Of a DNA stretch of 64,000 bases, positions 43,485-44,338 are shown in pieces (position 1 is the stretch's first letter; each line of letters opens with the position of its first letter). The notes beneath the pieces are model-generated. The model saw nothing but the letters and a program-made list of their open reading frames with translations, was not told where the DNA came from and did not search any database. Source of the DNA: Methanolobus bombayensis (GTDB taxonomy: Archaea; Halobacteriota; Methanosarcinia; Methanosarcinales; Methanosarcinaceae); contig NZ_JAGGKD010000007.1 of NCBI RefSeq assembly GCF_017873415.1, forward strand, positions 62,001 to 126,000, in the 5' to 3' direction. The position numbers and the translations under genes were made by a program.

Positions 43485-43991
43485 TTAGATTCCCAAAAGT
43501 TGCTTTTTCTTGAAGTTGAATTCATCGTCTGTTATAATTCCCTGTTTTTTAAGGGATGAAAATTTTTTGATCTGCTCAATCACATCATGGCTGCATGTAG
43601 CTTTGCATTCCATGTCATGACTTATTTCAACGATATATGATTTTGTTTTTTTAACAAAGTCCTCTGCATTTTCATTTAATGGAATCAATGTAACCTTAAG
43701 ACTGGTGACGCTGGTCTGGATCTGTATGTTTGATCCAAGTATTCCCTTTTCATAATTAATGCTGCTGATCTCTTCAAGAGGGTATTTTTTGGACCTGTAG
43801 CGTCCATTTTCTCTTTTATACTGGAATATGACTCTTTCAGGAGTGAGTACAAGCACGCCACTAAGTTTTTCAGTTTTCTCCCAAAACAATGTTCCGTTGA
43901 TCACACCTGATACGGCATCTATTATGTTTTCATCTTTCCCAAGAATTTTTTCAATATTTTTCATCCTTCCCTTTGTACATTTGCTTATCAT
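43485..43991 (-). CDS. PH-like domain protein with C-terminal SHOCT
   Basis: A 168-residue protein. The middle part (about 25-125) has the pattern of a bacterial PH domain of the YokE type: GVLVLTPERVIFQYKRENG, YPLEEISSINYEKGI and SLKVTLIPLN. The C-terminal 32 residues form a SHOCT motif (VIEQIKKFSSLKKQGIITDD then EFNFKKKQLL). Such proteins are small cytosolic or membrane-associated modules of unknown role. I chose the ATG at 43991, five bases after GGGAG; the reading from GTG at 44003 would overlap the ribosome site. Confidence 0.75.
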   Translation of the reverse strand: MISKCTKGRMKNIEKILGKDENIIDAVSGVINGTLFWEKTEKLSGVLVLTPERVIFQYKRENGRYRSKKYPLEEISSINYEKGILGSNIQIQTSVTSLKVTLIPLNENAEDFVKKTKSYIVEISHDMECKATCSHDVIEQIKKFSSLKKQGIITDDEFNFKKKQLLGI

Positions 43992-44221
43992 ATTATCTCC
44001 CACACAAGAGTAAATGATTAATTTGTGATTCTAATTAATTGAGTTAATTATTGAGAATTTATGCTATTTTGTCTCAGGAAATAAGTATGTAATAATAAAT
44101 ATAAAAAAGTACTTTAATATTTTTTTAGCTTTGTTACCTGTCTTGATTGTAATTGAGAACACTTTTTGATGTCAGTTGTGAAAGCAGTTTTTAAGAAAAG
44201 GTATGACAATGAAAATGTTGA

Positions 44222-44338
44222 CGCCGAGGTTGGGATTCGAACCCAAGCACTCCCTTCGGAGAAACCGGTCTCGAGCCGGTCGCGTTTGGACTCCGGGGCT
44301 GTTCAGCCGGGCGGATTAGTCCGCTCTGCCACCTCGGC
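44222..44338 (-). tRNA. tRNA-Ser(CGA) with an apparent 31-nt intron in the D arm
   Basis: Read on the minus strand, a perfect 7-bp acceptor stem (GCCGAGG with CCTCGGC) encloses a 117-nt gene. The anticodon arm is ACCGG-CTCGAGA-CCGGT, anticodon CGA; a long variable arm (TTCTCCGAAGGGAGTG) and T arm TTGGG-TTCGAAT-CCCAA follow, as in a class II serine tRNA. The D arm, however, contains about 31 extra nucleotides. Removing 44284-44314 restores a D stem GCA/TGC and an 86-nt tRNA. The insert can fold (GGAC/GTCC, TCCG/CGGA, GGCT/AGCC) with 3-nt bulges TAA and AAA near the boundaries, like a bulge-helix-bulge; that reading puts the intron at 44286-44316 and leaves an A-C mismatch. CCA is not encoded. 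Confidence 0.8.

Follow-up and report, generated by a model that had tools for sequence, protein, structure and literature searches.

The window analysed here, a stretch of 64,000 nucleotides from Methanolobus bombayensis, carries on its minus strand at positions 44222-44338 a tRNA-Ser(CGA) gene of 117 nucleotides including an intron, and of 86 nucleotides after intron removal, with no encoded CCA. The assignment comes from the sequence, from a covariance model and from ARAGORN run on the spliced form. As an earlier note on this DNA had stated, all parts of a class II serine tRNA can be read on the minus strand: from 44338 to 44222, the acceptor strand GCCGAGG is followed by GCAGAGCGGACTA, 31 nucleotides and ACGCG, then by CTCGAGA, which contains the anticodon CGA (44273-44271), by a long variable arm (CTCCGAAGGGAG) and by the T arm (TTGGGTTCGAATCCCAA), CCTCGGC and G73. 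The 5' exon (44317-44338, 22 nucleotides, positions 1-21) ends in GGACUA and is delimited by the register of the bulge-helix-bulge motif and by the identity of the spliced product with intronless relatives. The 3' exon (44222-44285, 64 nucleotides) begins with ACGCG. The 31-nucleotide intron between them (44286-44316, minus strand) lies in the D arm, between tRNA positions 21 and 22 in our own numbering, exactly at a junction that intronless relatives have without an insert; it is therefore not at position 37/38, the canonical site of archaeal tRNA introns. Two introns of the canonical kind are present in the same genome, both in the C-loop, in tRNA-Met(CAU) (37 nucleotides) and tRNA-Tyr(GUA) (36 nucleotides); they are also short and presumably removed by the same enzyme, but differ from the D-arm intron in position.

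The unspliced gene scores 39.5 bits, above the cut-off, in a genome search with the tRNA covariance model. With default settings, neither ARAGORN nor Rfam makes a call at 44222-44338 when the window is scanned, and ARAGORN with C-loop introns allowed miscalls the gene as tRNA-Phe(GAA); given the spliced 86-mer, ARAGORN returns Ser(CGA). This has consequences for annotation, since a tool that does not search for introns in the D arm would overlook the gene in this window or report a tRNA-Phe(GAA) whose intron lies in the anticodon loop, and public records of related genomes may show the same omission or Phe label. The serine anticodons found in the genome are GCU, UGA, GGA and this CGA. The earlier note had pointed out that a second intact tRNA-Ser(CGA) would make this gene a pseudogene; covariance model, pattern and ARAGORN searches of the genome found no other Ser-CGA, and the gene is therefore not a decayed duplicate of an intact one. 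The idea that a provirus or an integration event had left its scar on the tRNA was also rejected, as no repeat of the tRNA 3' end was found elsewhere in the window. Across the tRNA from the side of the PHP-domain gene lies a small ORF (43485-44003), which adjoins the tRNA in only 2 of 25 members of the genus; the region 3' of the tRNA is therefore variable.

The minimum-free-energy and centroid folds of a local 51-nucleotide stretch agree on a central helix formed by the exon strand GGAC (44319-44322) and the intron strand GUCC (44288-44291), with bulges UAA (44316-44318) and AAA (44285-44287), and on a stem-loop starting with UCCG and ending with CGGA that closes the intron (44292-44315), all on the minus strand. 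We set the boundaries by the rule that the cut falls two nucleotides into each bulge, with predicted cuts UA^A and AA^A. Removal of 44286-44316 creates the junction GGACUA^ACGCG, and the predicted spliced D arm (GGACUAACGCG) is that of intronless relatives from several families, which have GGACTAACGCG or GGACTAATGCG at the exact junction; the 86-nucleotide tRNA expected in the earlier note is thus recovered. Because the junction is an A-A/A-A repeat, three adjacent placements of the intron, differing by one nucleotide to either side, give an identical mature RNA. For its insert of about 31 nucleotides the earlier note had offered two positions. The one derived from the fold, 44286-44316, is that given by the bulge rule; the other, 44284-44314, was rejected because it yields UAAUGCG in place of UAACGCG and breaks the splice motif.

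The four-base-pair helix with two three-nucleotide bulges agrees with the earlier proposal of a bulged helix compatible with the archaeal splicing endonuclease, with the qualification that it is of the HBh' type and does not have the canonical outer helix. In the homologue set, the outer helix of a strict hBHBh' motif is absent directly after the 3' bulge: the GAGC/YGCG flanks are unpaired beside the central helix, and the motif can therefore be closed only by the two-base-pair D stem, on the far side of an internal loop, or by a two-base-pair helix with a four-nucleotide 3' bulge. A motif that keeps the central helix, the 5' bulge and the inner helix but has no stable outer helix is of the relaxed HBh' or bulge-helix-loop type, to which this one belongs. 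The folding energy of the 51-nucleotide stretch is not significantly different from that of shuffled sequences (z -0.69); it was dropped as a proof of structure, and the case for the intron consequently rests on comparison. For the whole 117-nucleotide precursor, energy alone favours another structure (-51.3 versus -48.8 kcal/mol with the motif enforced).

The comparison with the same gene in related species, suggested in the earlier note, revealed an intron at the same junction in 98 distinct sequences from five families, as well as intronless homologues that match the spliced product. The exons are nearly invariant across the 98 sequences, and the intron varies in length from 17 to 47 nucleotides. 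The exon strand GGAC, near the end of the 5' exon, is base-paired to GUCC, GUCU or GUUC at the 3' end of the intron in 98/98, so that the four-base-pair central helix of archaeal protein-spliced introns is present throughout; its covariation is one-sided, because only the intron strand varies. In the chosen register both bulges are three nucleotides long in all sequences (UAA, AAU, CAA, AAA, UAU or AAG on the 5' side; AAA, AUA, CAA or UAA on the 3' side), and a cut two nucleotides in yields a proper Ser(CGA). The intron helix h' that follows the 5' bulge is kept at pairs 1, 2 and 3, which are paired in 98/98, 97/98 and 98/98 sequences, with two-sided compensatory changes from U-A to C-G, from C-G to U-A and from C-G to G-C. 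Taken together, pairs 1-3 form in 293 of 294 cases in register and in about 212 of 294 after a one-base slide of the 3' partner. Pair 4 is paired in 67 sequences against a shuffle mean of 31, a comparison that is not a probability because the sequences are related by descent; the types of compensatory change found in separate families are stronger evidence than this comparison. Recurrence of the insert and its pairing in 98 distinct homologues means that they are not due to chance, and bears out the tRNA-Ser(CGA) with a non-canonical D-arm intron described in the earlier note.

The family and genus names given to relatives are putative, being taken from sequence matches to named records. All tested members of Methanolobus, a genus recognised by its matches to records such as M. 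profundi, M. vulcani and M. psychrotolerans, carry the insert. An order-wide pattern search, counted by hand, found about 80 intron-bearing genomes in three families, two of which match ANME-2c/HR1-type and GoM-Arc1/Argoarchaeum-type records; in two other families, about 43 genomes have no intron at this junction. Of 50 genomes in a Methanothrix-matching family of another order (Methanotrichaceae, L128), 44 have the intron; outside the class, a 17-nucleotide form occurs in two genomes of one family. Within Methanosarcinaceae it occurs in nearly every member except the Methanosarcina-like genera and two further genera without a located gene (g16 and g18), which gave no tRNA-like match to either the intron-bearing form or the replaced form described below. 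Introns outside the anticodon loop had been thought in the earlier note to be unusual in Methanosarcinales. This did not hold for the present one, which is the usual state in Methanotrichaceae, in several ANME lineages and in those Methanosarcinaceae that do not belong to the Methanosarcina-like genera. Judged from genome sequences, the predicted D-arm intron is the rule in the class and no rarity, because it is present in nearly all Methanosarcinaceae outside the genera just named, in Methanotrichaceae and in ANME-2c-type and GoM-Arc1-type archaea. This distribution suggests an old intron, already present in the ancestor of the class common to Methanosarcinaceae and Methanotrichaceae or earlier, which was lost or replaced in some lineages; it would thus be a non-canonical intron inherited for a very long time and not recently inserted. 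In two ANME-2c-type genomes, a second, broken intron-bearing Ser-CGA lies near the intact one (L167, in the area of G043:C87:520-560; L132, G028:C106); the anticodon stem of each broken copy contains foreign sequence beginning with GTCGAAAATCGC, similar in the two and forming a hairpin in G043.

The intron-bearing form is absent from a Methanosarcina-type genus and two sister genera. In these genera Ser-CGA occupies the orthologous position, again downstream of the PHP-domain gene, but has a different, intronless body (beginning with GCCCAGGTAGTCTAGCGGTAAGGCGACGGTCTCGAAAACC), whose D arm resembles that of Ser-GGA and whose anticodon arm resembles that of Ser-UGA. This replaced form was seen in G148, G153, G156 and G172 (Methanosarcina-type) and in G103 and G104 (loci L197-L205); the label 'Methanosarcina' is putative and draws on the placement of the genus in the family. 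These resemblances suggest that the Ser-CGA body was replaced in place from other serine tRNAs in the Methanosarcina-type genera.

The splicing endonuclease of the M. bombayensis genome is encoded by one ORF of 362 amino acids with two PF01974 domains, which matches the Archaeoglobus fulgidus alpha'2 enzyme (2GJW, E 6.7e-33) and keeps the aligned Tyr, His and Lys. One ORF with two PF01974 domains was likewise found in 18/18 further genomes, whether or not they have the intron. In the M. bombayensis enzyme, the stretch between FYG and LSL exceeds that of A. fulgidus by one residue and does not have the ten residues inserted in 3P1Y, an engineered variant that bears the loop. The genome therefore has a single alpha'2-type ORF, and not an (alpha beta)2 or epsilon2 enzyme with a crenarchaeal- or ARMAN-specific loop. 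The loop region after FYG/LFG is the site of the specificity-loop lysine in other lineages. In the five EndA proteins that were read (L082, L185, L187, L189, L192) a Lys directly follows the FYG/LFG motif (5/5), and this residue may play a part similar to that of the specificity-loop lysine. Published views of the range of alpha'2 enzymes differ: they are described as restricted to canonical motifs (PMC4033280, PMC4090602) or as acting mainly on these (PMC4033280, PMC6379350), A. fulgidus alpha'2 can cut a bulge-helix-loop intron at 37/38 in a full-length precursor (PMC6379350), and homodimeric endonucleases are credited with cutting the bulge-helix-loop motif (PMC8707768). If it is spliced, the conserved Ser-CGA intron sides with the broader view (PMC8707768, PMC6379350).

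Could the gene be a pseudogene broken by an insertion? The default scans that miss it, and the fact that its unspliced form would have no D arm, are in keeping with this idea, but a broken gene is hardly expected to be the sole Ser-CGA found in the genome, with nearly invariant exons and insert helices kept in 98 distinct sequences, and we regard this as very improbable. It is just as improbable that the mature tRNA keeps the insert and so has an enlarged, structured D arm. The insert does form a stem-loop in the local fold and is present across a class; against its retention, its length ranges over 17-47 nucleotides with only the splice-motif pairs conserved, exact intronless homologues exist, and the D stem-loop would be destroyed. 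Removal by an activity other than EndA, such as self-cleavage or an unknown nuclease, would account for an intron that has no outer helix in a lineage whose alpha'2 EndA is mainly canonical according to reviews (PMC4033280, PMC6379350). Two three-nucleotide bulges and a four-base-pair helix are nonetheless the signature of EndA, bulge-helix-loop activity is on record for an alpha'2 enzyme at 37/38 (PMC6379350) and credited to homodimeric forms (PMC8707768), and 31 nucleotides are too few for a group I or II intron; this explanation has very little chance of being correct.

The locus is, with high probability, a functional tRNA-Ser(CGA) gene whose non-canonical, protein-spliced D-arm intron is cut out by the alpha'2 EndA before the exons are ligated. 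That the gene encodes a genuine tRNA, interrupted by an archaeal intron of the non-canonical kind, follows from its being the only Ser-CGA found, from the conserved junction, from helices with compensatory changes and from the broad occurrence of the intron. That the precursor is cut and ligated and the mature tRNA used is predicted from the anatomy, the fold, conservation and covariation, the identity of the product with intronless relatives and the type of endonuclease. In the precursor, the 5'-exon GGAC would pair with the intron GUCC, leaving a three-nucleotide bulge at each splice site, and the intron would close as a UCCG:CGGA stem-loop. The dimeric alpha'2 enzyme would then cut two nucleotides into each bulge, and ligation of the exons would produce an 86-nucleotide tRNA reading UCG. 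We lean slightly towards the further proposal that a loop-less alpha'2 endonuclease has removed this relaxed D-arm bulge-helix-loop intron through the whole history of the methanogen class. If true, this contradicts the need for loop-bearing (alpha beta)2 or epsilon2 enzymes on such motifs, and the alpha'2 lineage may have a different recognition aid.

Non-canonical archaeal introns are already known, with D-arm sites including 20/21 and 22/23 (PMC4090602), and the main interest of the Ser-CGA case is the enzyme question. Euryarchaeal lineages with alpha'2 or alpha4 enzymes are described as having only canonical introns, non-canonical ones being tied to broad-specificity endonucleases (PMC4090602, PMC4033280); the unusual point is an intron of this kind in a lineage whose alpha'2 enzyme is described as canonical-only. 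A single D-arm intron kept over an alpha'2 class is a natural exception to these reviews, testable with one enzyme and one RNA. Among the papers covered by our text searches, none names the Ser-CGA D-arm intron. Multiple introns are recorded for Methanopyrus and Methanothermobacter (PMC4033280), the training of tRNAscan-SE 2 took in some euryarchaeal non-canonical introns (PMC8450103), and a passage of PMC3218864 mentions three thermophilic euryarchaeal methanogens with introns at non-canonical positions, one of which could be Methanothrix thermoacetophila (Methanosaeta thermophila). In contrast with the introns of thermophilic methanogens, the Ser-CGA intron covers mostly mesophilic genera. 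As in the relaxed HBh' or bulge-helix-loop motifs of other systems, the central helix, 5' bulge and inner helix are kept here and the outer helix is missing or of two base pairs, but efficient removal of such motifs is reportedly confined to (alpha beta)2 and epsilon2 enzymes (PMC6379350), whereas the enzyme here is an alpha'2 without a loop insert. The non-canonical introns of Thermoproteales and other former Crenarchaeota, of Thaumarchaeota and of Nanoarchaeum likewise have a motif of the bulge-helix-bulge type away from 37/38. Those lineages mostly have heterotetrameric endonucleases, with a specificity loop in Crenarchaeota, and their introns are often numerous and spread over many sites; in the present case, unlike in the crenarchaeal type of system, there is one non-canonical site in one tRNA, stably inherited alongside an alpha'2 enzyme.
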